From Spongiibacter marinus (GTDB lineage Bacteria > Pseudomonadota > Gammaproteobacteria > Pseudomonadales > Spongiibacteraceae), in NCBI RefSeq assembly GCF_016906995.1, contig NZ_JAFBBD010000002.1:1-64000 (forward strand): a DNA stretch of 64,000 nt. The letters run 5' to 3'. Of the stretch, positions 51,565-64,000 are shown piece after piece; position 1 is the stretch's first letter, and each line of letters opens with the position of its first letter. The notes beneath the pieces were generated by a model that worked only from the letters and a program-made list of their open reading frames with translations, was not told the DNA's origin and ran no database searches. The position numbers and the translations under genes are program-made.

Positions 51565-53001
51565 ATGAACGCAATACAACCCGCCGTCAGTGAGATTGCT
51601 GCACCACTTCACCAGGCATTCGACCTACAGCGCCAGGCCTATTTGGCCGCGCCAGTGCCCAACTACAGCGAGCGCAAACAGGACCTTCAGCGCTTGAAGA
51701 GCATGCTTAGCGACAACCGCGAAGCGATTATTGATGCGATCTGTCAGGATTATGGCAATCGCTCGCGTCACGAGAGTTTGTTTGCGGAAATCATCGCAGT
51801 AACCGATGCCATCAACGATGTGATCAAGCATCTAAAAAAATGGATGCGCGTACAAAAACGCCACGTTGATCACACCATGTTTCCCGGCGGCCGCAACCGT
51901 GTCATTCCCCAGCCCTTGGGCGTGGTGGGAATCATCGTACCGTGGAATTTTCCGGTAAATCTCAGCTTTGTACCCATTGCCCAAGCCTTTGCCGCGGGCA
52001 ACCGCGCCATGGTGAAAATGTCCGAGAACTCGCGCGCACTGAGCGCCTTGCTTCGCGAGTTGACCGCCAAGTACTTCGCTGAAGACAAGCTGCAATTTTT
52101 TGATGAAACTGGCGGTGTCGGCATCGAATTTTCGAAGATCCCCTTCGACCTGCTCGTGTTTACTGGCTCAGGCCAGACCGGCAAGTCGGTGATGGCTGCT
52201 GCGGCGCAAAACCTGACACCGGTGGTGTTAGAGCTAGGCGGCAAGGCCCCTGCGGTGATTGATCCAGACTACCCCATTGAAAAAGCCGTTGGACGAATCA
52301 TGTTCATCAAGCAATTCAATGCCGGGCAAATTTGCACCAACGTCGACTATGTATTCGTGCACAGCAGCCAACGAGAAGCCTTTGTGAACGAGGCCAAACG
52401 CTACGTTGCCAAGCACTGCCCTGATATTAATCATCAAGACTACACCTCAATTATCGACGACCGCTCAATGCAGCGTTTACAGGCTACCCTTGAGGATGCG
52501 CGTTCGAAGGGGGCAACGGTCATCAACCTGAACGACCAAGACGCGAATATCGAGGCGCGAAAACTGCCGTTGCACCTGGTGTTGGACACCACGCCCGAAA
52601 TGACCATTCGCCAGCGCGAAACTTTCGGCCCGCTGTTAATGGTGTTGGAGTACGACAGCCCGTCCGAAGTGGTCGACTACGTGAATGCCCATGACCGCCC
52701 GCTGGCGTTTTACCCTTTCACCAAGAAGCGCGAGTTGGCCGACATGTATATTGAGCGGGTCATGTCGGGTGGCGTAACGGTTAACGATGCGCTGTTCCAC
52801 CTTGCTCAGCACGACCTGCCCTTTGGTGGTGTGGGCGGCAGTGGCATGGGTCACTATCACGGCTATGAAGGGTTTATCACCTTCAGTAAGCTGCGTCCGG
52901 TCTACTATCAGCCCGGTTTCTCACCGATGGAGTGGCTGCGCCCACCCTATGGCAATTTCGCCACGCGCTTCTACAACCTGCTGCTAAAACTCAAGGGCTG
53001 A
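51565..53001 (+). CDS. Aldehyde dehydrogenase (coniferyl aldehyde dehydrogenase type)
   Basis: A 478-residue NAD(P)-dependent aldehyde dehydrogenase. Catalytic Cys257 is in FNAGQICTNVDY and Glu223 in VLELGGKAP; VPWNFPVNLSF and GSGQTGKSVM form the cofactor site. The overall pattern (HTMFPGGRNRVIPQPLGVVG, C-terminal GMGHYHGYEGFITFSK) is that of coniferyl aldehyde dehydrogenases, which accept several aromatic and aliphatic aldehydes. It lies 83 bases before an alcohol dehydrogenase on the same strand, so the pair could oxidise an alcohol to an acid. The true substrate is unknown. Confidence 0.9.
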   Translation: MNAIQPAVSEIAAPLHQAFDLQRQAYLAAPVPNYSERKQDLQRLKSMLSDNREAIIDAICQDYGNRSRHESLFAEIIAVTDAINDVIKHLKKWMRVQKRHVDHTMFPGGRNRVIPQPLGVVGIIVPWNFPVNLSFVPIAQAFAAGNRAMVKMSENSRALSALLRELTAKYFAEDKLQFFDETGGVGIEFSKIPFDLLVFTGSGQTGKSVMAAAAQNLTPVVLELGGKAPAVIDPDYPIEKAVGRIMFIKQFNAGQICTNVDYVFVHSSQREAFVNEAKRYVAKHCPDINHQDYTSIIDDRSMQRLQATLEDARSKGATVINLNDQDANIEARKLPLHLVLDTTPEMTIRQRETFGPLLMVLEYDSPSEVVDYVNAHDRPLAFYPFTKKRELADMYIERVMSGGVTVNDALFHLAQHDLPFGGVGGSGMGHYHGYEGFITFSKLRPVYYQPGFSPMEWLRPPYGNFATRFYNLLLKLKG

Positions 53002-53084
53002 TCGCTCGTCATTTAGCCAGTGTCTCAATAGGGGAGCGCAGCTGCTCCCCGTGCTTCCCAGAAAACCAATAAATAGGAATTGCT

Positions 53085-55235
53085 ATGAAGACTGCAATGC
53101 GCCTGTTGAGCAGTACTGTGCTGCTCGCGATGACCTTAAGCGGCTGTAGCCGCGACGTTGACACGAAGGCCAACGCTGGTAGCCAGCCTGTTAATGCTGA
53201 ACGAATCATTGCTGCCGCGCCCGGTGAGTGGGTGAGCCACGGACGTGATTATGCCGAGCAGCGTTTTAGTCCGCTCAAGCAGATCAACGATGACACGGTA
53301 AGCGAACTGGGCCTGGCGTGGTATGCCGACTTGCCCACGCGTCGCGGCATTGAGAGCACGCCGCTAATGGCAGACGGCGTGCTATATGTAACGGCGTCGT
53401 GGGGCCACGTACTCGCCTTTGATGCACGTAACGGCGCGCTGCTTTGGCACTTCGACCCCAAGGTTCCCAAGGACTACGGCGTCAATGGCTGCTGCGACGG
53501 GGTTAACCGCGGGGTGGCGCTTTGGGGCAACGCTGTTTACGTCGCCAGTTATGATGGCCGCTTGAGTGCCCTCGACAGGTACACAGGCGAGCTGCAATGG
53601 CAGGTGGATACCCGAATAAACCAGCAAGACCCCTACACCGTTACCGGTGCGCCGCGTATTGTCGACGGCCGCGTCATTATTGGTAACGGCGGTGCCGAAC
53701 TCGGCGTTCGCGGTTATGTGAGTGCCTTTGACGCAAAGACCGGTGAACTGGACTGGCGTTTTTATACGGTGCCCGGCAATCCGGCAAAGGGTTTTGAAGA
53801 CGACACCCAGAAAATGATCGCTAAAACCTGGCACGGTAAGTGGTGGGAAAATGGCAAGGGCGGCGGTACCGCTTGGGACTCTTTCGCCTACGACCCCGAG
53901 CTGAACCTGCTTTACATCGGGGTGGGTAATGGCTCGAGCTGGAACCGCAAAGCGCGCAGTGATGGCAAAGGCGATAATTTATTCCTGTCGTCAATTGTGG
54001 CCGTGAAAGCCGACACTGGAGAGTATGTCTGGCACTACCAAACGACCCCCGGCGACAGTTGGGACTACACGGCGACACAGCACATGATTCTCGCCGAGTT
54101 AGAAATTGATGGCGTCGAGCGTAAGGTCATTATGCAAGCGCCGAAAAACGGCTTCTTTTATGTGCTCGATCGCCGCAGCGGCGAACTATTGTCAGCTGAG
54201 AAATACATGCCCGTAAACTGGGCGAGCCATGTGGATATGGAAACGGGGCGGCCGGTGGAAGCCGCGGGCCTGCGCGATGGTACTTTCCCGGGCATGGTGA
54301 GGCCCGCGCCCAGCGGCGCCCACAATTGGCAGCCCATGTCATTCAGCCCGCAAACCGGCTTGGTGTACATTCCGGCGATGAGTTCGGGGGCAATCTATTC
54401 AGACGACTTTTCCGCGAAGGATCGCAAGGGCACCTGGAATACCAACTACGCTGTTGAAGCAATGCTCGAGGTGCCCGACCAGGTGACGGTAGAGCAACGC
54501 AAGGCAATGGGTGAAATGCTGCTGCAGTCGGTGCTGATCGCGAGGGATCCGGTCACCAATACCGATGCCTGGCGAATTGAGGGCGGCTACTTCTCGGCCA
54601 GCGGCTTGCTGTCCACGGCTGGGAACTTACTATTTCAAGGAGACTTGGACGGGCAGTTTCGCGCCCGCGCGGCCGATACCGGGAAGTTGCTTTGGCAAAA
54701 AGATGTACAGGGCGGTTTGATGGCTGCACCGATGAGCTATGAGCTTGATGGTGAGCAGTACATTGCCATTGCCCAGGGCTGGGGCGGTATCAGTGGCCTG
54801 CCCTACGGAGCGGTATCTGGCCCGAGGAATATGATCAATATTAGCCGCGTGCTGGTCTTTAAGCTCGGTGCCAATACCGAACTGCCGCGCATCCCGGTTG
54901 TTGAGCAAGCCCTGCCAAAGCCCGCATTGGCGGCGGCAAGCGATGAAGACATTGCGAAAGGACGTGAGCTGTTCAACCTCTACTGCGCGGTCTGTCACGG
55001 TGGCAATGCCATTAGTGCGGGGCTGATTTCCGATTTGCGTTACCGCATCAATGACCTAGATGACGCGTGGCTTGCCATTGTGCGCGACGGTGCGTTGGCT
55101 TCCATGGGCATGCCCGCGAGAGGTGAGTTCATTGATAACGATGAAGCCATCGCGATCAAGCACTATGTTGTCGAGCAGGCGCGCTTAGGACACGAGCGTG
55201 GCGAGAAGCGCTTGATAAGGGGCGCTGCGCAATAG
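53085..55235 (+). CDS. PQQ-dependent quinohaemoprotein alcohol dehydrogenase
   Basis: A 716-residue periplasmic enzyme. The N-terminus has a lipobox LSGC (18-21), so it may be a lipoprotein with Ser at +2, pointing to the outer membrane. The eight-bladed PQQ domain shows the vicinal disulfide Cys136-Cys137 (NGCCDG) and catalytic Asp327 in SWDYTATQ. A cytochrome c domain follows, with CAVCH at 634-638. Residue 329 is Thr, not the Asp of lanthanide-dependent enzymes, so calcium is expected. Electrons would pass to a cytochrome. PQQ synthesis genes are not in the window. Confidence 0.92.
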   Translation: MKTAMRLLSSTVLLAMTLSGCSRDVDTKANAGSQPVNAERIIAAAPGEWVSHGRDYAEQRFSPLKQINDDTVSELGLAWYADLPTRRGIESTPLMADGVLYVTASWGHVLAFDARNGALLWHFDPKVPKDYGVNGCCDGVNRGVALWGNAVYVASYDGRLSALDRYTGELQWQVDTRINQQDPYTVTGAPRIVDGRVIIGNGGAELGVRGYVSAFDAKTGELDWRFYTVPGNPAKGFEDDTQKMIAKTWHGKWWENGKGGGTAWDSFAYDPELNLLYIGVGNGSSWNRKARSDGKGDNLFLSSIVAVKADTGEYVWHYQTTPGDSWDYTATQHMILAELEIDGVERKVIMQAPKNGFFYVLDRRSGELLSAEKYMPVNWASHVDMETGRPVEAAGLRDGTFPGMVRPAPSGAHNWQPMSFSPQTGLVYIPAMSSGAIYSDDFSAKDRKGTWNTNYAVEAMLEVPDQVTVEQRKAMGEMLLQSVLIARDPVTNTDAWRIEGGYFSASGLLSTAGNLLFQGDLDGQFRARAADTGKLLWQKDVQGGLMAAPMSYELDGEQYIAIAQGWGGISGLPYGAVSGPRNMINISRVLVFKLGANTELPRIPVVEQALPKPALAAASDEDIAKGRELFNLYCAVCHGGNAISAGLISDLRYRINDLDDAWLAIVRDGALASMGMPARGEFIDNDEAIAIKHYVVEQARLGHERGEKRLIRGAAQ

Positions 55236-55250
55236 CCTATCCGCAGAGGG

Positions 55251-55280
55251 AAAAACAGCGGCTCTTGCCGCTGTTTTTTT
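55251..55280 (+). terminator. Terminator after the PQQ alcohol dehydrogenase gene
   Basis: Stem AAAAACAGCGGC / GCCGCTGTTTTT with a TCTT loop and a longer T run on the plus strand. The A run on the left lets it also act for the convergent peroxidase gene. Confidence 0.9.
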
Positions 55281-55300
55281 GTGCGCTTATTTCGCTGAAC

Positions 55301-56308
55301 TTATTTAACTGAACTTAAGGTCACTGGCCGGGTATTTTCCAATGCGTTCAGGAAGGTGACAATGCTCGCCGTGTCAGCGTCGCTGAGTGAGCGGCCAAGT
55401 TGTAACCACGCCATCTGTTTTACCGCTTCGTCCAACGTTTTGGCCGCGCCATCGTGGAAGTAGGGCGCGGTGCGTGAGATATCGCGCAGCGCTGGCACCT
55501 TAAACACAAAGCGGTCGCTCGCCTTGCCGGTTACCTCCTGACGGCCAATGTCGCTGGTATTGGCATAGGCATTCACCACACCCATTTTTTGGTACATGGT
55601 GCCGCCCAGTGTCGCGCCGCTGTGGCAGGCGATGCAGCCCGTGCTAATGAAGGTTTTCAAGCCCTGCTTTTCCGCTGCGTTCAGTGCTTGGTCGTCGCCC
55701 GCCAAGAACTCGTCAAAACGGTCGCGGGTAATCAACGTGCGCTCGAAGGCGGCAATTGCTTCGGCCATATTGTCGTAGCTCAGCGCGGGCTCAGCATTGG
55801 GAAAGGCCTTGGCGAAGGCTGTTGCGTAACCCGCGTCACGCAGCCGCTGTTCGGCGGTTGCTTCATCGGGCATGGCCATTTCTACCGGGTTGAGAATGGG
55901 GCCCTTTGCCTGGGCTTTCAGGTCGGCGGCGCGGCCGTCCCAGAACTGTGCAATGTGAAAGCCGGCGTTAAACGAGGTGGGTGAGTTGCGACCGCCGCGT
56001 TCGCCGAGCGCGCCTGGCGAGGTGGGCTCGTTGTCGACACCGGCACCGTTGTTGTCTACTTGGTGGCAGCTGTTGCAAGACTGACTACCATTGGTCGACA
56101 GCGCCGTTTCAAAATAGAGCTGTTCACCTAGGGCAATGCGCTCGGGCGTGTCATTTTCGCTGCCAGGCATTGCCGCGGGCAGTGGTTTGAAAAAGGCTTG
56201 AGCCTGGGCGCGAAGCGCGGCATCGGCGTTGGCTGTTGCGCTGGTAGCAAGGCCGCCAAGGCACAGGCCGACGACCGCGAGGGTATTTTTAACGCTGTTG
56301 TTAAGCAC
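55301..56308 (-). CDS. Dihaem cytochrome c peroxidase family protein
   Basis: A 335-residue periplasmic protein with a Sec signal peptide (LAVVGLCLGGLATSATANA) and two c-haem sites, CNSCH (78-82) and CIACH (225-229). The family reduces hydrogen peroxide or, in MauG-like members, oxidises proteins. Conserved RNSPTSFNAGF and FKVPALRDISRTAPYFHDG fit bacterial CCP. It is convergent with the quinohaemoprotein gene and 116 bases downstream of the TonB receptor. It could accept electrons from the same cytochrome pool. Confidence 0.9.
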   Translation of the reverse strand: MLNNSVKNTLAVVGLCLGGLATSATANADAALRAQAQAFFKPLPAAMPGSENDTPERIALGEQLYFETALSTNGSQSCNSCHQVDNNGAGVDNEPTSPGALGERGGRNSPTSFNAGFHIAQFWDGRAADLKAQAKGPILNPVEMAMPDEATAEQRLRDAGYATAFAKAFPNAEPALSYDNMAEAIAAFERTLITRDRFDEFLAGDDQALNAAEKQGLKTFISTGCIACHSGATLGGTMYQKMGVVNAYANTSDIGRQEVTGKASDRFVFKVPALRDISRTAPYFHDGAAKTLDEAVKQMAWLQLGRSLSDADTASIVTFLNALENTRPVTLSSVK

Positions 56309-56424: not shown

Positions 56425-58788
56425 CTACCACTGGTAGCTCATGCTGGCGAATACGCTCCGGCCGGGGTTTTGGCTTGGGTTATAGGTGCCCGGGAACATC
56501 GCGGTATCAATCACTTGGTTGAGGCTGCGCTCGTCACTTAAATTTTTGCCGCCAACCGTCAGCGCCCAGCCTTGTTCGTCACTGCGCAGTGTCAGGTTTG
56601 CGGCGACGGTTGTGGTGTCGGGAATGCGCGTATTGTCGTCCAGGTCGGTGTCAGTGTAGTGCTCGCCCTGATGCTGAATATTCATGCTGGCACGCAGCAG
56701 AAGGCTGCCCAGCTGATACTCCAGCGTTGGGCTTATTGTGGCCGTTAACTCCGGCGCGAAAGCCAGGCGTTTACCGCTGAGGTCTTGCTTAGCGCCGATG
56801 CCATCGCTAATGGGCGCCGGGCCGTTTTCATATTCTTTGTAACGGGCGCGCAGGTAGCCCAGTGAGGCGTTGATGCTGAGCGGGGTATATGGTGTGAGCC
56901 ACTGAATCTCGCTCTCGATACCTTCGGAAAATGCAGCCGCGGCATTGGTAACGTCGAACAGTAAACCGTTAAATGCAAGAACCTGAAGGTCGTCAAAGTC
57001 CATGCGGTAGGCAGTGATATTGAGCTGTAGACTGTTTTCGAGCCAGCGGCTACGCAGGCCCAGTTCGAAAGATTGTGCCTCTTCCGGCTCGAACTCCAGC
57101 TGCTCGCCAGTGAAGGAAATGGCATTAACGCCACCACTTTTGAAGCCGCGGGAGAGGCTGGTGAAAAAGGAAATGTCGTCGTTCAAAAAGTAGCTGAGTG
57201 TGAGCTTGGGGGATAACTGGGTTTCAGTGCGCTCAATTTCACCGGGGGCGTAGTCCTGGCCGCCAGTGAGGGTCGCGGTAATACAGGGCAGCAATGGGTT
57301 GCTGCACACGCCTTGGCCAGTGGGGGTGGACTTCTTCGTTTCCCGGTTCAGGCGCAGTCCCGGTGTAAGTACCCACTTTTCGCTAATATCCCAGCTCACC
57401 TGGCCAAACAATGCGGTGGCGGCGGTGTCCTGGCGATAGTCAAAACGGTAGTAATCGGTTTCCTGAAGTAGGTTGGTCAATTGCGGCAGGATGGCGGCCA
57501 AGGTGCCGGCCAAAGGGTTGCCGGGCACATTACTACTGCCACTTAGTAGCTGTTGGGCATCTTTGGTTAGCACGTAGGAGGCAATATCCTGGCCAGCAAT
57601 AATGTCGGCAATGATGCGAAAGTCACTCTGGAAATAATACAGGCCGCCGATAAACTCAACATTCCCACCCAGCCCAAATAAGCTGTCCGCCGCGCCGCTA
57701 AAGCGCCATTCGAAAGTTTGTTGGCGATAATCGTCGACCTCGTCCAAGGTCAATAAATCGGCGGGGGAGACATCCAGATCCTGTCGTTGTTCGACATCCA
57801 ACCAGGACAGGCCGATGACAGCGGTGGTGTCCAGTCGCGATAAGCCAGCCACTTCACCAAAGTCATAGCTACCTCGCATGGCCAGGCTATCTGAGCGCTG
57901 GTAGAGCTTGCCGTCTTCATTAAAGCTGGTTTGGAAGTTGAAAGGGTCATCTTCGATTTCGGGATCGAAGTTTTGCAAATAGTCCCGAGTATCGTCGTCG
58001 AGCTTCATTAACTGCCGCGGCCAGAAGTTAACGCGGGTGACAGATTGCTGCGCAATAAACTCCAGTTCACTGCGGTCACTCGGTTGCCAATTGAGTTTTG
58101 CTCGCAGCGCATCTTGGTCGCGGTCGTCCTCTTTTCGCTCGAGTTTGGTATTTTCCAGGCGGCCGTCGCGCTGCCACTTCATGGCGGACAAGCGCAGTCC
58201 CAGACTGGGGCTAAAGCGATACCCGACGCCCGCCTCAAGACGTTGTTCGCCGTATTCTTCGTCGCGGTAGCTCAGCTCCCCTTCACTGCCTTCCTCGGCG
58301 GGGACAGTTTGGCTGCTGACATTGAATACACCGGCGATCGTATTTTTACCGAACAGTGTGCCCTGTGGTCCACGCAGCACTTCCACCCGTGCAAGGTCAT
58401 ACATTGACTCGCTGAAGTAGCTGGGGCGACCGTAGAACACCTCATCCTGAACCAGCCCTACCGCAGGCTCGAAGCTGGGGTTAAAACTGTTGGTGCCAAA
58501 GCCGCGAATGAATACCTGAGGTGAGGACGGGCTGGTGAACTCGACTCTGACATTGGGTACGTAGGCTGACACGGCGACCAAATCGCCGATGGCGTTGTCC
58601 TGCATAAAGTCGCCAGACAGGGCGCTGATTGAAATTGGAACGTCCTGCAGGCTTTGTTGGCTCTTCTGCGCGGTGACGACCACCTCCTCTAAAACGCGGG
58701 GGCGGTTTTCGGCTTCGGCGTTGGGGCTGAGCAGCGCCAAGGCAAGGATGCCTAGGGCGGTCGTTCTACTGTTGCTGTGCGTTGTCAT
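56425..58788 (-). CDS. TonB-dependent outer-membrane receptor
   Basis: A 787-residue active-transport barrel. After a signal peptide (ALGILALALLSPNAEA) comes a TonB-box-like EEVVVTAQK, the plug (DVPISISALSG, VFIRGFGTNSFNP, VEVLRGPQGTLFGKNTIAGVFN in part as LRGPQGTLFGKNTIAG) and the barrel (SRGFKSGGVNA), ending SVFASMSYQW with terminal aromatic Trp. The plug resembles receptors common in bacteria degrading hydrophobic or aromatic compounds rather than classical siderophore receptors. It is 49 bases downstream of the TSUP gene on the same strand. Ligand unknown. Confidence 0.92.
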   Translation of the reverse strand: MTTHSNSRTTALGILALALLSPNAEAENRPRVLEEVVVTAQKSQQSLQDVPISISALSGDFMQDNAIGDLVAVSAYVPNVRVEFTSPSSPQVFIRGFGTNSFNPSFEPAVGLVQDEVFYGRPSYFSESMYDLARVEVLRGPQGTLFGKNTIAGVFNVSSQTVPAEEGSEGELSYRDEEYGEQRLEAGVGYRFSPSLGLRLSAMKWQRDGRLENTKLERKEDDRDQDALRAKLNWQPSDRSELEFIAQQSVTRVNFWPRQLMKLDDDTRDYLQNFDPEIEDDPFNFQTSFNEDGKLYQRSDSLAMRGSYDFGEVAGLSRLDTTAVIGLSWLDVEQRQDLDVSPADLLTLDEVDDYRQQTFEWRFSGAADSLFGLGGNVEFIGGLYYFQSDFRIIADIIAGQDIASYVLTKDAQQLLSGSSNVPGNPLAGTLAAILPQLTNLLQETDYYRFDYRQDTAATALFGQVSWDISEKWVLTPGLRLNRETKKSTPTGQGVCSNPLLPCITATLTGGQDYAPGEIERTETQLSPKLTLSYFLNDDISFFTSLSRGFKSGGVNAISFTGEQLEFEPEEAQSFELGLRSRWLENSLQLNITAYRMDFDDLQVLAFNGLLFDVTNAAAAFSEGIESEIQWLTPYTPLSINASLGYLRARYKEYENGPAPISDGIGAKQDLSGKRLAFAPELTATISPTLEYQLGSLLLRASMNIQHQGEHYTDTDLDDNTRIPDTTTVAANLTLRSDEQGWALTVGGKNLSDERSLNQVIDTAMFPGTYNPSQNPGRSVFASMSYQW

Positions 58789-58837
58789 GGCGTTTTCTCG
58801 TTTTTATTATGTATCGTTTTTTTGTGTTCTGGTGTGC

Positions 58838-59569
58838 TTAAAAGCCGGTAATGATCAGCAAGCTACCGGTAAAAAGCAGCAGGGCGTAAACCACATTGCG
58901 AAAACGTTGCTCGTCTACCCGGTGGTGGAGATATTCACCTACGACGACGCCGGCGACTAACACCGGGGCAATTGCGGCGACCTTGGGTAGTGCGGGGTAG
59001 AGGCTTCCATCAATGGCGAAGACGACGGTGAGTAAGCTGTTTAAGCTGAACCACACGGTGATTAGTGTGGCGCGAAAAGCCGCTTTATCAAGTTGGGTGC
59101 CCGTCAACGCATAGACTAGTAACGGGCCGCCAGAGGCGTAGAGGCCGTGGGTAATCCCGGCGCCCAGCATCCAGCCCCGTGTCCACAGCGCGCCGTGACG
59201 GCGGCTGCTCAGACCGCGATAGGCGCGCAGCAGCTCGCGACCGGCAAACCAGACGACCAGGGCGCCAAATAGTAATTGCAAAAGCTGATCGCCGAGCCAG
59301 GGCCTCAACAGATAGCCCGCCAAGGTGCCACTAACCATTAACGGCAGAATCAGCTTAAGTAAGGTGGACCAATGAATGTGCTGGTGGTGGCGGGCCAGTA
59401 GGTAGCCCGTCATACAGATATTCAGCGGTACCAGCACGGGTAGCATGGCCTCAATGGGTAGCAACAACGCGCCCAGTGATAGGGCGATAACAATGCTGCC
59501 AAAGCCGGTGATCGCTTCAATGCTGTAGGCAACAAAAACGAAAATCGCCAGAAGAATCCAAGGGTCCAT
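58838..59569 (-). CDS. TSUP-family permease (TauE/SafE type)
   Basis: A 243-residue membrane protein with about eight hydrophobic segments in two repeats. TSUP hallmarks are ITGFGSIVIALSLGALLLP near the start and GITHGLYASGGPLLVYAL in the second half. Members export sulfite, sulfoacetate and other organic sulfonates or acids. I chose ATG at 59569 because it overlaps the preceding stop (TAATG); 30 residues of open frame upstream run through the previous gene. Substrate unknown. Confidence 0.87.
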   Translation of the reverse strand: MDPWILLAIFVFVAYSIEAITGFGSIVIALSLGALLLPIEAMLPVLVPLNICMTGYLLARHHQHIHWSTLLKLILPLMVSGTLAGYLLRPWLGDQLLQLLFGALVVWFAGRELLRAYRGLSSRRHGALWTRGWMLGAGITHGLYASGGPLLVYALTGTQLDKAAFRATLITVWFSLNSLLTVVFAIDGSLYPALPKVAAIAPVLVAGVVVGEYLHHRVDEQRFRNVVYALLLFTGSLLIITGF

Positions 59570-60354
59570 TAATGCTGCTCCAGTTCCACGGCAAATTTGC
59601 GCCGCATTAGGCGGTGGAAGGTTGTTGGCGCAACGCGCCACAGCAAGCTTGCCAACCAAATTCCGCGATGGGGAAACAAGTGTGGTTTGCGCCGTTCGGC
59701 GGCCTGTAAAATTGCTGCGGCCAGCGGTTCGGGCTCGCCAATGCCGCCGAGGGTGGAGCGTGCGTGCCGCGCAGCGTTGCCATCGGCACCGAGGGCATTT
59801 TGTTCGATATTGGTGTTCACGAAGGCGGGGTAGACCATCAGTACGTGCACACCATTGTCCTGTTCTTCGCCGCGTAGTACTTCAAAGAACTGACTCAGTG
59901 CAGATTTAGCGCTGCAATACGCGGCTCGGCCGAGCACCGGCATCCAGCCCGCCATTGAGCCAATGTTAATGATACTCCCGCGGCTGCGTCGCAGCAGCGG
60001 GAGTAAGGCCATGCTGAGCGATACAGGGGCTTGCCAGTCGATAGCCATTACCTTTCTAAACACCGCCGGATCAGTGTGGCCGGCGAGAGAGCGGTGGGTA
60101 ATACCGGCGTTATTCACCAGGATATCCAGGCGTCCACTTGCGGTGATGGCCTGAGCGACAGCGTCGATAGCGGCTGCATCGGCAAGGTCGGCAACAACGG
60201 TGTGCACACGCTCGTTGCCGAGTGTTGCGCTGCGTTGCTGCAGTCCCTCGGCGTCGCGGTCGACGAGCCACACGCAGTCACCGCGCTGATAAAACTGTTG
60301 CGCCATCGCCCAGCCGAGCCCGCTGGCGGCACCGGTAATGAGTACTGTCTTCAT
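59569..60354 (-). CDS. Short-chain dehydrogenase/reductase
   Basis: A 261-residue classical SDR. It shows TGAASGLG (7-14), NNAG (81-84), Ser133, Tyr146 and Lys150 (YCSAK) of the catalytic tetrad. The C-terminus is extended with arginines and aromatics (RKPHLFPHRGIWLASLLWRV), as in membrane-associated SDRs acting on lipophilic alcohols such as SadH-like enzymes. It overlaps the epimerase gene by four bases. A role in oxidising or reducing the monooxygenase product is inference. Confidence 0.88.
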   Translation of the reverse strand: MKTVLITGAASGLGWAMAQQFYQRGDCVWLVDRDAEGLQQRSATLGNERVHTVVADLADAAAIDAVAQAITASGRLDILVNNAGITHRSLAGHTDPAVFRKVMAIDWQAPVSLSMALLPLLRRSRGSIINIGSMAGWMPVLGRAAYCSAKSALSQFFEVLRGEEQDNGVHVLMVYPAFVNTNIEQNALGADGNAARHARSTLGGIGEPEPLAAAILQAAERRKPHLFPHRGIWLASLLWRVAPTTFHRLMRRKFAVELEQH

Positions 60355-61283
60355 AGCTGCCCCCGGGCGCGGGCGTGGTCGATAAACAGCTCCAATACTT
60401 GCGCTGAACTCAACTGCGGTTGATAGCCAAACTCTTCTTTCAAACGGCGATTACTCAGTACCGGGCGATAGCGCAAGAAGTTAATCTGCTCGGGTCGATA
60501 GCGGCTTAGGCCGAGTCGATGCCCCACTGCGAGGGCGGTTTTAAGCAGCGCCGCAGGTAAGCGCAACAGGGGTTTGTTTAAACGCTTTGCCACTTCATCA
60601 ATGCGCAGGGCGCCGTCACCGGCGAGATTAAACATGCCCACTTGGGATTCAATAATGCCTTTCTCCACAATCCGGAGCAGGTCTTCGTCCCAGATAAAGA
60701 CAAAGGGCGAGTCAGAGCCGCGAATAGCCAACAGGCGTTTCTTCTCAAACAGCTGGGTAATCTGATTGCGGGTTTGGCGCCCCAGTACAGTGCCTGGGCG
60801 CAAAATGAGCTGCTTGAGCTCCGGGTGCGCGCGGCGCTGCTCGGCTAAATACTCTTCAACCAAACGCTTGTGGCGGGCATAGGCAAATTCGTCATTGCCG
60901 CGCAGCGGGTCGCTTTCATCGATCCAGCTGGGGTTGTCGGGATGGTAGCCATAGGCTGCGCCGGAGCTGGTGACGGTGAGGTGTTGTACACCGGCCTTCA
61001 GGCAACAATGCACAACATTGCGCGTGCCGTTTACGTCGATATCGTAGTCGCGCTGCTCGTCGCCGCTGGCTTCGAGTACTGAGGCGAGGTGCACAACGTG
61101 GCTGACCTGGTGCTCGCTCAGAATGTCAGCCAGCTTCGGGTCGCGAATATCGCACTGGATGTGATTCGCGTCGTCAGTAGGGCGAATGTCCACGCCAATC
61201 ACGGCGTAATCTTTCCTGAGTCGCTCGCTGAGTTGGCGACCGATATAGCCGCCGGCGCCGGTAATGAGAATACGTTTAGGCAT
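60351..61283 (-). CDS. NAD-dependent epimerase/dehydratase family protein
   Basis: A 310-residue extended SDR. It has TGAGGYIG (8-15), VVHLASVLEASGDE, catalytic Tyr135 and Lys139 (YARHK) and LRPGTVLGRQTRNQ. The family includes sugar epimerases but also hydroxysteroid and dihydroflavonol dehydrogenases; the catabolic context argues against a sugar role. It overlaps the BASS gene by eight bases and the SDR gene by four. Confidence 0.85.
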   Translation of the reverse strand: MPKRILITGAGGYIGRQLSERLRKDYAVIGVDIRPTDDANHIQCDIRDPKLADILSEHQVSHVVHLASVLEASGDEQRDYDIDVNGTRNVVHCCLKAGVQHLTVTSSGAAYGYHPDNPSWIDESDPLRGNDEFAYARHKRLVEEYLAEQRRAHPELKQLILRPGTVLGRQTRNQITQLFEKKRLLAIRGSDSPFVFIWDEDLLRIVEKGIIESQVGMFNLAGDGALRIDEVAKRLNKPLLRLPAALLKTALAVGHRLGLSRYRPEQINFLRYRPVLSNRRLKEEFGYQPQLSSAQVLELFIDHARARGQL

Positions 61284-62178
61284 GAATAGTCTCCGCGCTG
61301 CGCGACCAGTAAAAAGCCAAACAAAGGCCGGCAGCCAAATGCCAGAAGCTCCAGAAGCCTGCGATAAGCATCATGCCGCCCGCCTGGGGGAAAAACGTGA
61401 AAATGATCGACAGGCCGAGTGCTGAATTTTGTATGCCGACCTCCATGGTGACGGCGCGGCGCTCGGCCTGGGGAAGTTTGATAACGCGCCCTGCCAAGTC
61501 GCCAAGCAGCAGTGCGCCGGCGTTTTGCAGGGCAACGAGCAGCAAGATGCGGTCGGCGTACTCCATAAATAGCTGCTGGTTGCGGGAGAAGGCGATCACG
61601 ACAAAGCACAGAAACACCAGCAGGGTGACCGCGCGCATGGGCTTTTCGGCGCGGGTGGCCCATTCAGGGTGGCGTTTGCCAACGGCCATGCCCAGTAGCA
61701 TGGGCAGCACTAGTACCAATGCGACCAGCAGCAAGATATTCATTGGCTCCAGAGAAATGCCGCGCAGCAACTCCCGGGTGGCGGGGTTGAGCTGCGCGTA
61801 AAGGCCAAAATTAAGGGGGGTCATCACGATGGCCGCCAAGCTCGAAACGGCGGTCATGCTGACCGAGACGGGCACACTGGCGCGGCCCAGCCAGGTCATA
61901 ATATTGGAGAATGTCCCGCCGGGGCAGGAGGCGATGAGTATCATACCCAGTGCTAATTCTGCGGGCACGGCGAAGGCGATTGTCGCCAGGCAGGTCGCCG
62001 CTGGCAGCAGAAGAAACTGTGCCACCAAGCCGGCAGCGGGCGCGTGGGGTTGCCGCAATACGCGAACGAAGTCGTCACGGCGCAGGCCCATGGACACACC
62101 AAAGATCATGCCCGCTAGAATCCCGTTAAGCAGGATCAGGCTCTGGGGGCTGAACGCGACTTGAATATCAGCGTACAT
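61276..62178 (-). CDS. Bile acid:sodium symporter (BASS) family transporter
   Basis: A 300-residue inner-membrane protein with nine or ten hydrophobic segments. BASS motifs are IASCPGGTFSNIMTWLG in the first repeat and MEVGIQNSALGLSI in the second, which form the sodium-binding crossover in solved structures. Members move bile acids, pantothenate, pyruvate and other organic anions with sodium. It overlaps the monooxygenase gene by 11 bases, so it is likely made with it. A steroid-like or carboxylate substrate is only a guess. Confidence 0.88.
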   Translation of the reverse strand: MYADIQVAFSPQSLILLNGILAGMIFGVSMGLRRDDFVRVLRQPHAPAAGLVAQFLLLPAATCLATIAFAVPAELALGMILIASCPGGTFSNIMTWLGRASVPVSVSMTAVSSLAAIVMTPLNFGLYAQLNPATRELLRGISLEPMNILLLVALVLVLPMLLGMAVGKRHPEWATRAEKPMRAVTLLVFLCFVVIAFSRNQQLFMEYADRILLLVALQNAGALLLGDLAGRVIKLPQAERRAVTMEVGIQNSALGLSIIFTFFPQAGGMMLIAGFWSFWHLAAGLCLAFYWSRSAETIHA

Positions 62179-63490
62179 ACGCGGCGTCGCTCTGTGGCAG
62201 GTCTCGTTGCAGTTGTTGAATATGCCGATTCACGCTGCGCCGATAGCTGTCTTTGTGCACGTAGTAGGCCATGCGCTCTAGTTGCAAATAGCGATAGCCG
62301 CCATCGAGGCGCTGGCCACAGTGGCGTTTGATATCGCGCTCCAATTGCAGGGCGGCTTTGCCGCCGGCTAATTGCTGACGTATATACAGAGCGACCATCT
62401 CGGCCTGCTCGCTACGACCCTCCCAGCCAAGCCCCGTTGCTTCAATCATGCCCATCACAAACAAATTGCGGTGCTCGGGATGGAACACATTTAAATACAG
62501 TGAGGGCGCACCGCCGTCTTGCCAGTTGAGGTGCTTGCGGTCGATAAATGGGTAGTGGAGCTGATAACCGGTCGCCTGCAAAATCAGGTCGTAGTCGGCG
62601 CATTCGCCATTGCTGAACTCGACGCTGAGGCCGTTGGTGTTGGCAATGTCGCCACGGGCCGTGATGTCGCCATGACCAAGGTGATGCAGCATCTGTGAGT
62701 TGATCACCGGGTGTGATTCATACATTTTGTAGTCGGGATCGGGCAGGCCGTAGTCCGAGGGTTTGCCCACCGCAAGGCGAATCATCAATGCGTCAAGGCG
62801 CTGTTTTATTGGCCGCGGTAGCGGGATCAGACCGCCCAGCGTATCGGTGGGGCGGCCAGCGATAAACTTGGGAAGAAAGTAGTAGCCGCGGCGCACCGAT
62901 ACGTCCACAGATTTGGCGCGGTGCACGGCATCCACGGCAATGTCGCAGGCGGAGTTGCCGCAACCGACAATTAATACCCGCTTGCCGGCAAAGACCTCGG
63001 CATTGCGGTAGTCTGCGGAGTGCATTAGCTCACCGGTATATTCACCGGGCAGTGCTGGCGCGTTGGGGTGATGCAGGGTGCCATTGGCGATTAGCAGGCC
63101 GTCAAAGTCTTCGATATGGCGCTTGCCATGCTGCTCGCTAACGATCCGCCAGCCGCCATTGTCGAGCGGGCTGGCGTCAATCACTTTGGTGTTAAATCGG
63201 TAGTGAGGGTAGAGGCGGAAGTGCTGGGCGAAGTCTCGGAAATACTGGCGCAGTTCGCTGTGATGCGGGTAGGGTGCACCGCTTTTTGCCATGGGGAACT
63301 CTTTGAACTCGGTCATGTGGCGCGACGAGATCAAGTGGGCCGAGTCGTACATAGTGCTGTGCGGGTTGTCGATGTCCCACAGGCCGCCAACATCGCTGTG
63401 CAGCTCAAATCCGGTAAAGGGGATGTCGTACTTTTGTAAATTCCGGGCAGCCGCCAAGCCCATCGGGCCAGCGCCAATTAATGCGTACAT
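62168..63490 (-). CDS. Flavin-containing monooxygenase
   Basis: A 440-residue FAD/NADPH monooxygenase. The start MYALIGAGPMGLAAARNL places the FAD-binding GxGxxG at residues 6-11; 71 residues of open frame upstream are not related and cross the divergent promoter region. The FMO fingerprint appears as YTGELMHSADY (151-161), with Tyr for the usual first Phe, followed by the NADPH site GCGNSA (176-181). Such enzymes hydroxylate or insert oxygen at N, S or ketone carbons. First gene of the minus-strand operon, divergent from an AraC regulator. Confidence 0.92.
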   Translation of the reverse strand: MYALIGAGPMGLAAARNLQKYDIPFTGFELHSDVGGLWDIDNPHSTMYDSAHLISSRHMTEFKEFPMAKSGAPYPHHSELRQYFRDFAQHFRLYPHYRFNTKVIDASPLDNGGWRIVSEQHGKRHIEDFDGLLIANGTLHHPNAPALPGEYTGELMHSADYRNAEVFAGKRVLIVGCGNSACDIAVDAVHRAKSVDVSVRRGYYFLPKFIAGRPTDTLGGLIPLPRPIKQRLDALMIRLAVGKPSDYGLPDPDYKMYESHPVINSQMLHHLGHGDITARGDIANTNGLSVEFSNGECADYDLILQATGYQLHYPFIDRKHLNWQDGGAPSLYLNVFHPEHRNLFVMGMIEATGLGWEGRSEQAEMVALYIRQQLAGGKAALQLERDIKRHCGQRLDGGYRYLQLERMAYYVHKDSYRRSVNRHIQQLQRDLPQSDAAYVR

Positions 63491-63512
63491 AGCACATACT
63501 CTTGTTATCATT

Positions 63513-63544
63513 ATTGCAATACAGCTTAATTGAACAGCTATTGC
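63513..63544. promoter_or_regulatory. Candidate AraC-type operator between FMO and regulator genes
   Basis: Two direct ACAGCT repeats (63521-63526 and 63534-63539) are spaced 13 bases centre to centre and enclosed by GCAAT (63516-63520) and ATTGC (63540-63544) arms. Direct repeats near one helical turn are usual for AraC-family binding. The site lies 23-54 bases from the FMO start. Confidence 0.45.
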
Positions 63545-63587
63545 GCGTAACGGCTTTTTCAGGACGGCAATCTGCCAATTCAGGACT

Positions 63588-64000
63588 ATGACCGAACCCA
63601 CCGTCACATTGCGGTTTACCCAAGGCTTGTTGCAGGCCGCCGAGCGCCGGGGTATTGAGCTTCCCCCCGCGTTGAGTCGTCGTGTGCCGGAAACCGGGCG
63701 CACGCCTTTGGCGGTGCAAGATCAGTTGTGGCAGGCCTACTGCGATGCCGTTGATGACCCCTTGGTCGGTTTGCAGCTTGGCCTGGGATTGCAGGTTGGC
63801 CACCTGGACCTTGTCGGCATGCTTCTGATGAGCTGCGAAACCCTCGGCGAGGCACTCGACCTGCTACTGGAATATCACCCCATTGTGGGCGAAGGGGGCG
63901 ACTTTGCTCTGCGTCACGCCGGTGGCAACTGCCTGTTAATCTATCAGCCCCACTATCAAACTTGCCGCCGCCAGCGCGTGGAAGCGGTGCTGGCCTGCGT
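63588..64000 (+). CDS. AraC-family transcriptional regulator, N-terminal part (cut by window end)
   Basis: An open frame of 137 codons runs off the window. Its translation (MTEPTVTLRFTQGLLQAAERRG, as MTEPTVTLRFTQGLL; then VQDQLWQAYCDAVDDPLVGLQLG and GHLDLVGMLLMSCETLGEALD) is the sensory N-terminal domain of VirS/OruR-type AraC regulators. The helix-turn-helix part lies beyond base 64000. It is divergent from the monooxygenase operon with 97 bases between, the usual place for its regulator. Effector unknown. Confidence 0.85.
   Translation, partial: MTEPTVTLRFTQGLLQAAERRGIELPPALSRRVPETGRTPLAVQDQLWQAYCDAVDDPLVGLQLGLGLQVGHLDLVGMLLMSCETLGEALDLLLEYHPIVGEGGDFALRHAGGNCLLIYQPHYQTCRRQRVEAVLAC

Follow-up and report, generated by a model that had tools for sequence, protein, structure and literature searches.

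A conserved operon of a flavin monooxygenase, a BASS-type transporter and an epimerase-like dehydrogenase in Spongiibacter marinus, with a thiamine-diphosphate enzyme at the monooxygenase position in some relatives

Gene organization of the locus

We analyzed an operon-like locus at the end of a 64,000-nucleotide stretch of DNA from Spongiibacter marinus (contig NZ_JAFBBD010000002.1, positions 1 to 64,000), referred to here as the window. A class B flavin monooxygenase (FMO), a BASS-type transporter, an epimerase-like short-chain dehydrogenase/reductase (SDR), a classical SDR, a TSUP permease and a TonB-dependent receptor are encoded in succession on one strand and face an AraC-family regulator (Table 1). 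The gene order and the facing AraC-type gene were found where the original prediction, made from the sequence alone, had placed them, as were the overlaps between FMO and BASS (11 bases), BASS and epimerase (8), epimerase and SDR (4) and SDR and TSUP (1), and the 49-base gap between TSUP and the receptor. The full-length AraC-type gene encodes 319 amino acids (aa) and ends at contig position 64547.

All seven proteins scored above the curated Pfam cut-offs (FMO-like, SBF/BASS, Epimerase, adh_short, TauE/TSUP, TonB plug and barrel, and Arabinose_bd with HTH_18). The FMO reached 170.6 bits with PF00743 (cut-off 22), the BASS protein 103.5 bits with the SBF profile (cut-off 24.3) and TSUP 90 bits with PF01925 (cut-off 32.6), and the receptor matched both its plug (PF07715) and its barrel (PF00593) above cut-off. 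Among the NCBIfam models shown for the seven proteins (the best 25 for the SDR and the receptor), none passed. The epimerase-like protein combines a GalE-type fold with a YxxxK motif; the curated model for UDP-sugar 4-epimerase (GalE), TIGR01179, gave 61 bits, under its cut-off of 262. A scan of the region for sigma-70 promoters and terminators gave no excess over shuffled sequences.

Table 1. Features of the locus in the window, with two receptor genes from related loci
Feature	Position	Strand	Basis or remark
FMO, class B flavin monooxygenase (PF00743), 440 aa	62168..63490	-	ORF + Pfam
BASS-type transporter (PF01758), 300 aa, probably sodium-coupled	61276..62178	-	Pfam
Extended SDR, "NAD-dependent epimerase" fold, 310 aa, YxxxK at 135-139	60351..61283	-	Pfam
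Classical SDR, 261 aa, YxxxK at 146-150	59569..60354	-	Pfam
TSUP (TauE/SafE) permease, 243 aa	58838..59569	-	Pfam
TonB-dependent receptor, 787 aa	56425..58788	-	Pfam
AraC-family regulator (PF12625 + HTH_18)	63588..64000, cut by window end	+	Pfam
Divergent intergenic region FMO/AraC, 97 bp	63491..63587	no strand	
Direct repeat GTCCTGAA-N13-GTCCTGAA, period 21, proposed AraC operator	63558..63586	-	
Distant TonB receptors after TSUP	L063:12488-14806; L070:12529-14832	+	two Alteromonadales

Conservation and co-inheritance of the genes

Using the epimerase-like protein as the probe, we sought relatives in 57 related genomes (its own included), 369 genomes drawn across the class and 398 drawn across the phylum. 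Besides the window genome, relatives of 48-98% identity were found in 12 of the related genomes, in 2 others of the class-wide draw (E 1e-60 or better) and, at 40-61% identity, in 12 others of the phylum-wide draw (1e-50 or better). FMO and BASS genes adjoin the epimerase gene in 17 of the 26 relatives with at least 40% identity from the related or evenly drawn genomes, the FMO of one locus (L145) being only 40% identical. Another of the 26 (L137) has FMO and TSUP without BASS, and one (L034) has BASS together with an enzyme dependent on thiamine diphosphate (ThDP).

A scan of named genomes yielded 228 stretches encoding an epimerase relative, and the counts for loci given below refer to the best 80 of these 228; the 80 loci and the 26 relatives share at least six genomes (L042-L047). 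Under a strict rule of adjacency (same strand, gaps below 150 bases), 72 of the 80 loci have both FMO and BASS next to the epimerase. The eight that fail are L049, L055, the Wenzhouxiangella loci L064, L066 and L067, and L099, L119 and L121. L049 fails because its gap between BASS and epimerase exceeds 150 bases and L055 because it begins at a contig start, with its FMO on another contig; both genomes do have the FMO. Overlapping or touching junctions were counted for FMO-BASS (25/73), BASS-epimerase (47/77), epimerase-SDR (24/35) and SDR-TSUP (22/30), on gene starts from our own codon-based caller; the L143 epimerase was located by tblastn.

Within the family, orthologues of the FMO (at least 70% identity), the epimerase (at least 65%) and the receptor (at least 68%) occur in the same 9 of 21 Spongiibacteraceae genomes. 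None of the three was found in the other 12, among which G020 is 70% complete. Receptor paralogues of 44-55% are spread more widely, also in 7 of those 12 genomes. Pairwise identities of FMO and epimerase across 42 shared entries are strongly correlated (Mantel r = 0.89, reached by 0 of 2000 permutations), a correlation to which species history contributes. The original prediction had named scattered genes in related genomes as evidence against a system; the association was conserved at each level (72/80 loci, 17/26 relatives and the same 9/21 family genomes).

Forms of the locus across lineages

The Spongiibacteraceae form has an AraC gene facing FMO, BASS, epimerase, SDR, TSUP and TonB receptor, with TSUP missing in G010. 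Alcanivorax, Halopseudomonas and Alteromonadales keep this order without an orthologous receptor, and the Endozoicomonas form has no TSUP. Most Comamonadaceae carry an IclR gene facing an SDR (SDR2) followed by FMO, BASS, epimerase and an EamA transporter (IclR and EamA profile-scanned in L102). In Limnohabitans the order is SDR2, FMO, BASS and epimerase, preceded in 8 of 13 loci by a branched-chain-type ABC transporter (by eye); this locus often lies near IclR and 4-hydroxybenzoate hydroxylase genes (above cut-off in L085) and in some cases near an anthranilate-dioxygenase-like enzyme. In three genomes from a different class of the phylum (L140-L142), the genes for FMO, BASS, epimerase and SDR are faced by a TetR-like gene (L140 scanned, the rest by eye). 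L034 carries, behind its ThDP enzyme and BASS, a single 589-aa frame in which epimerase and SDR domains are fused (L034:2483-4252, plus strand).

The carriers range over Spongiibacteraceae, Alcanivorax, Idiomarina, Wenzhouxiangella, Comamonadaceae, Limnohabitans and Gemmatimonadota. An AraC-type gene was found in 33 of the 80 loci and TSUP in 32; across lineages the regulator may be of the AraC, IclR or TetR-like family, and the companion transporter TSUP, EamA, ABC or none. Because the regulator, the second SDR and the accessory transporter vary, the conserved core of the locus is FMO-BASS-epimerase.

Epimerase-like genes were also seen in other settings. In four loci the gene is paired with a Vgb-lyase/SGL-type protein of 590-600 aa and an MFS carrier, and not with an FMO (L032:2168-6176, L033:6485-11367, L149:5763-11434 and L099:2454-6378, the L099 carrier by eye). 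In three genomes of one genus from the same taxonomic order (L146-L148), the other genes are absent and an epimerase homologue of 45-46% identity stands beside an AraC-type gene, which in L146 resembles QhpR/GliR at a score under the cut-off.

The AraC-type regulator and its predicted operator

The window regulator matches VirS of Mycobacterium tuberculosis (PDB 8rcx) over residues 25-317 (E 5.2e-12), that is, over nearly its whole length. The earlier description of a coherent operon facing an AraC-family gene is supported. Between the two divergent genes lies the direct repeat GTCCTGAA-N13-GTCCTGAA, read on the FMO-sense strand from 63586 to 63558. In an alignment of nine Spongiibacteraceae, GTCC is kept in the FMO-proximal half-site in all nine and in the other half-site in eight. 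The pattern GTCC-N17/18-GTCC, picked after inspection of the very regions counted, occurs in 16 of 30 divergent regions (dereplicated from 33 with a divergent AraC gene), whereas 200 dinucleotide shuffles gave 0.145 on average and at most 2. The prevailing half-site spacings are 21 (12 pairs, with GTC[CT] counted) and 22 (8 pairs), and outside the six Spongiibacteraceae the GTCC repeat is found in 11 of 24 regions. Direct repeats spaced by about two helical turns characterize AraC operators, and we propose the repeat as a likely operator of the AraC-type protein.

Across the window genome, a single site matches the full repeat perfectly and 39 further sites carry two or three mismatches; these 40 sites do not exceed the 44 of a reversed control. 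Because there is a single perfect copy, the regulator appears to be dedicated to this operon.

Each of the six gene families is common, and the window genome alone has 48 matches to the TonB-receptor barrel, so that a merely accidental adjacency was considered. The neighbourhood counts, the co-inheritance and the direct repeat refute it, leaving it next to no probability. The locus is very probably a single functional operon.

Type of the flavin monooxygenase

VirS is an AraC-type regulator divergent from the mymA operon, which includes genes for a lipase and the acyl-CoA ligase FadD13, and the original prediction took our locus to have kept an FMO/SDR/AraC core of that system. Both share a VirS-like regulator divergent from a flavin monooxygenase operon, here 97 bp apart. 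They differ in gene content, with lipase and ligase there and BASS, epimerase-like SDR, TSUP and TonB receptor here; no lipase or acyl-CoA ligase was found by Pfam among the six operon genes. They also differ in the oxygenase. MymA is termed a Baeyer-Villiger monooxygenase (BVMO) in PMC13234193, whereas the BVMO fingerprint is absent from all 76 FMOs of our locus.

The fingerprints used were the FMO-type motif, in a relaxed form ([FYWAV]xGxxxHxxx[YF]), and the BVMO motif FxGxxxHxxxW[P/D]. The former occurs in 76 of 76 FMOs and the latter in none, under either a strict or a relaxed pattern. The mymA operon was consequently dropped as a template for the FMO type. Of the proposed mymA core, the likeness of the regulator stands; the oxygenase lacks the expected fingerprint, and the conserved core proved to be FMO-BASS-epimerase and not FMO-SDR-AraC.

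A conserved active-site Asn marks the N- or S-oxygenating class B FMOs. In the window FMO this column holds Ile54, aligned with the Asn of ancestral FMO1, FMO2 and DiatB (Asn57), and Ile is found there in all 76 FMOs, as is the segment HLISS[KR]. The nearest structure is DiatB (PDB 8z12), which differs from the window FMO in this residue and for which no paper was found in the open-licence literature. Fold relatives include ancestral FMO5 and the oxygenase domain of LbmA, both of which are Baeyer-Villiger-active without the classical fingerprint. Two specific assignments were rejected: the trimethylamine monooxygenase model scored 90 bits for a cut-off of 675, and the ArsO model fell far under its cut-off. 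Among plasmid records, 31 hold a relative of the FMO, every one below 60% identity.

These results bear on a reading in which the locus, like mymA, is a Baeyer-Villiger operon that acts on hydrophobic ketones or on fatty compounds; we regard this as unlikely. The VirS-like regulator, the presence of both FMO and SDR and the fold relatives ancestral FMO5 and LbmA speak for it, as does the fact that many carriers are marine Alcanivorax or Spongiibacteraceae. However, the BVMO fingerprint is missing from all 76 FMOs, and the operon genes include no lipase, ligase or esterase by Pfam. The locus has moreover spread to Limnohabitans, Idiomarina, Wenzhouxiangella and Gemmatimonadota, few of which are known as hydrocarbon users, and the BASS transporter and the replacement by a ThDP enzyme would suit an anionic oxo compound better. 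The hydrophobic ketone or steroid-like substrate of the original prediction found no direct support.

A further comparison is the almA gene of Acinetobacter venetianus, for which PMC11784139 describes an AraC/XylS-family protein that activates a flavin monooxygenase used on a hydrophobic carbon source, and terminal or Baeyer-Villiger oxidation by AlmA homologues. Likened by description, the APR1-AlmA system shares with our locus the pairing of an AraC-family activator and a flavin monooxygenase, but has another gene set.

Two other clusters with flavin monooxygenases were observed. In genome G006, an SDR, a 500-aa flavin monooxygenase, a hydrolase and an MFS carrier (by eye) are followed by two tandem TonB receptors that are 46% identical to the window receptor (L153:3838-13430, plus strand); this cluster may resemble the mymA idea more closely than the locus studied here does. 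In genome G007, a second FMO paralogue (42%) lies beside an SDR (by eye), with no BASS or epimerase seen nearby (L156:8177-10224, minus strand).

A ThDP enzyme at the position of the FMO

The Wenzhouxiangella loci L064, L066 and L067, together with L034, L119 and L121 (L121 by eye), carry a ThDP enzyme in the place of the FMO or adjacent to it. This enzyme belongs to the acetolactate-synthase superfamily. Among solved structures it is most similar to BbmA, acetolactate synthases and 2-hydroxyacyl-CoA lyases, and cyclohexane-1,2-dione hydrolase ranks lower; no relevant paper on the ThDP enzymes BbmA and CsmA was found in the open-licence literature. In L121 an iron-type alcohol dehydrogenase follows the epimerase, and the genes lie close upstream of an indolepyruvate ferredoxin oxidoreductase alpha gene (above cut-off) and of a PaaK-like ligase that misses its cut-off by 2 bits.

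No FMO was detected at E ≤ 1e-40 in the genomes of L064, L066, L067, L119 and L121 (the last three metagenome bins by title) or at 1e-60 in the L034 genome, and no such ThDP enzyme at E ≤ 1e-100 in the 18 FMO-type genomes tested. In the genomes tested, the two enzymes exclude each other. ThDP enzymes cleave bonds next to a carbonyl and cannot oxygenate nitrogen or sulphur; the step common to the two would therefore most simply be the cleavage of a bond, or a decarboxylation, next to a carbonyl.

The exchange also bears on the possibility that an imported compound is oxygenated by the FMO at a nitrogen or sulphur atom, for detoxification or nutrient release, with TSUP exporting sulphonate or sulphite. 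Such a role would agree with the FMO-type fingerprint in 76 of 76 proteins and with the sulphite and sulphonate carriers in the TSUP family. We nevertheless consider it improbable: the Asn of aligned FMOs is replaced by Ile throughout, the trimethylamine monooxygenase model falls far short, TSUP was found in only 32 of 80 loci, and an enzyme incapable of heteroatom oxygenation occupies the same slot in some lineages.

Our tentative proposal is that the O2-dependent FMO without the canonical Asn and the O2-independent ThDP enzyme may stand in for each other in a widespread, undescribed pathway, both acting on the same C-C bond of an imported compound, a 2-oxo or vicinally oxygenated carbonyl, beside the same BASS and epimerase-like SDR (in Wenzhouxiangella also SDR and TSUP). 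We offer it as a possibility that is less likely than not.

Transporters and uptake

A crystallised homologue of the BASS protein is 3zux (E 8.5e-35), with which the segments EVGxQN and CPGGTxSN align; these may contribute to a sodium site. The BASS protein belongs to the same family as the ASBT_NM-type BASS transporters and PanS but misses both NCBIfam cut-offs, with 161 of 326 bits for TIGR00841 (bass) and 119 of 400 bits for the ketopantoate/pantoate transporter (PanS) model.

Receptor orthologues (at least 68% identity) occur at the locus only in Spongiibacteraceae. A distant TonB receptor (26-27% identity) follows TSUP in Paraglaciecola arctica (L063, gap 14) and Pseudoalteromonas prydzensis (L070, gap 65), possibly as an independent gain or a fast-evolving relative. 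Because these distant receptors occupy the place after TSUP, outer-membrane uptake as part of the plan is favoured, in line with the import-and-oxidise logic of the original prediction; the export step that it added found no direct support. Receptor paralogues of the window family sit near varied gene clusters (by eye), and a steroid or hydrocarbon specificity was rejected since their surroundings single out no substrate.

Uptake also weighs on the alternative of a small biosynthetic operon, in which BASS would supply a 2-oxo precursor and TSUP or EamA would export the product. Two SDRs, an oxygenase and an exporter-like permease fit such an operon, which has no catabolic CoA genes, and the nearest structure, DiatB, may be biosynthetic. 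Yet the TonB receptor co-inherited in Spongiibacteraceae and the distant ones at the same place in two Alteromonadales point to uptake, and some Limnohabitans neighbours look like ABC importers (by eye) and aromatic-acid oxygenases, so that biosynthesis seems to us a poor candidate. Import followed by oxidation has somewhat the better chance of being what the operon does.

Proposed function

In the mechanism that we propose, the AraC-type protein would sense a metabolite, bind the two GTCC half-sites and activate the operon. In Spongiibacteraceae the compound, or a precursor of it, would pass the outer membrane through the TonB receptor, and BASS would import the anion of the compound through the inner membrane together with sodium. 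The epimerase-like and classical SDRs may interconvert alcohol and carbonyl groups with NAD(P). The FMO, with NADPH and O2, would attack the carbonyl carbon, either cleaving a C-C bond or decarboxylating the compound oxidatively; the ThDP enzyme would perform the equivalent cleavage without O2 in some lineages lacking the FMO. TSUP, or EamA in Comamonadaceae, would move an acidic product or a competing anion. The most likely substrate class is a 2-oxo acid or another carbonyl with a neighbouring oxygen, though this remains a rather doubtful guess.

Several observations weigh against this proposal. The exchange form is rare: BASS, epimerase, SDR and TSUP are all beside the ThDP enzyme only in L064 and L067, SDR and TSUP lie 6 kb away in L066, no BASS separates the ThDP enzyme from the epimerase on the 3.3-kb contig of L119, and the ThDP gene of L121 is split into three frames. 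Of the 26 epimerase relatives, three (L032, L033 and L149) are accompanied by an MFS carrier and a Vgb/SGL-like protein, two of them also by BASS, and four have none of these genes, so that the epimerase can work without the FMO; seven weaker matches (24-32%), excluded from the 26, have neither FMO nor BASS nearby. The exact GTCC repeat is missing from 14 of 30 divergent regions. Flanking pathways differ by lineage, with aromatic-acid oxygenases near some Limnohabitans loci and nothing obvious elsewhere, and therefore do not converge on one substrate. By Pfam, the operon genes include no CoA ligase, thiolase or hydrolase, and no known substrate was found for any member. The direction of transport by BASS and TSUP is our assumption, and the substrate guess leans on presumed parallels with YUCCA, cyclohexanedione hydrolase and plant BASS proteins.

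As far as our searches show, the operon is undescribed, and no paper on this gene set was found in the open-licence literature, preprints not covered. Its plan of AraC regulator, importer, flavin monooxygenase and dehydrogenases is familiar; the gene set and the interchange of FMO and ThDP enzyme are unusual. The gene unit is conserved from Spongiibacteraceae and Alcanivorax to Comamonadaceae, another class and Gemmatimonadota, and the exchange places a sharp chemical constraint on its step. The probable single-site operator could serve as a biosensor in a search for the substrate. To our knowledge, few substrates are known for the BASS and TSUP families, and this substrate would name the cargo of one subfamily of each.

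Neighbouring genes

Genes for an aldehyde dehydrogenase, a pyrroloquinoline quinone-dependent alcohol dehydrogenase with a cytochrome c domain (TIGR03075 above cut-off) and a MauG/cytochrome c peroxidase-like protein adjoin the operon (window 51565-56308). Only the window genome and its near twin G013 have the trio beside the operon; beyond these two, the aldehyde dehydrogenase alone was seen again, with 72% identity in G010 and with 28% in matches from L106 and L142. Past the window end, an ImpA-family metalloprotease is encoded (L002:5756-8788, plus strand, contig about 67755-70787), with 949 bits for NF038322 and a cut-off of 250.

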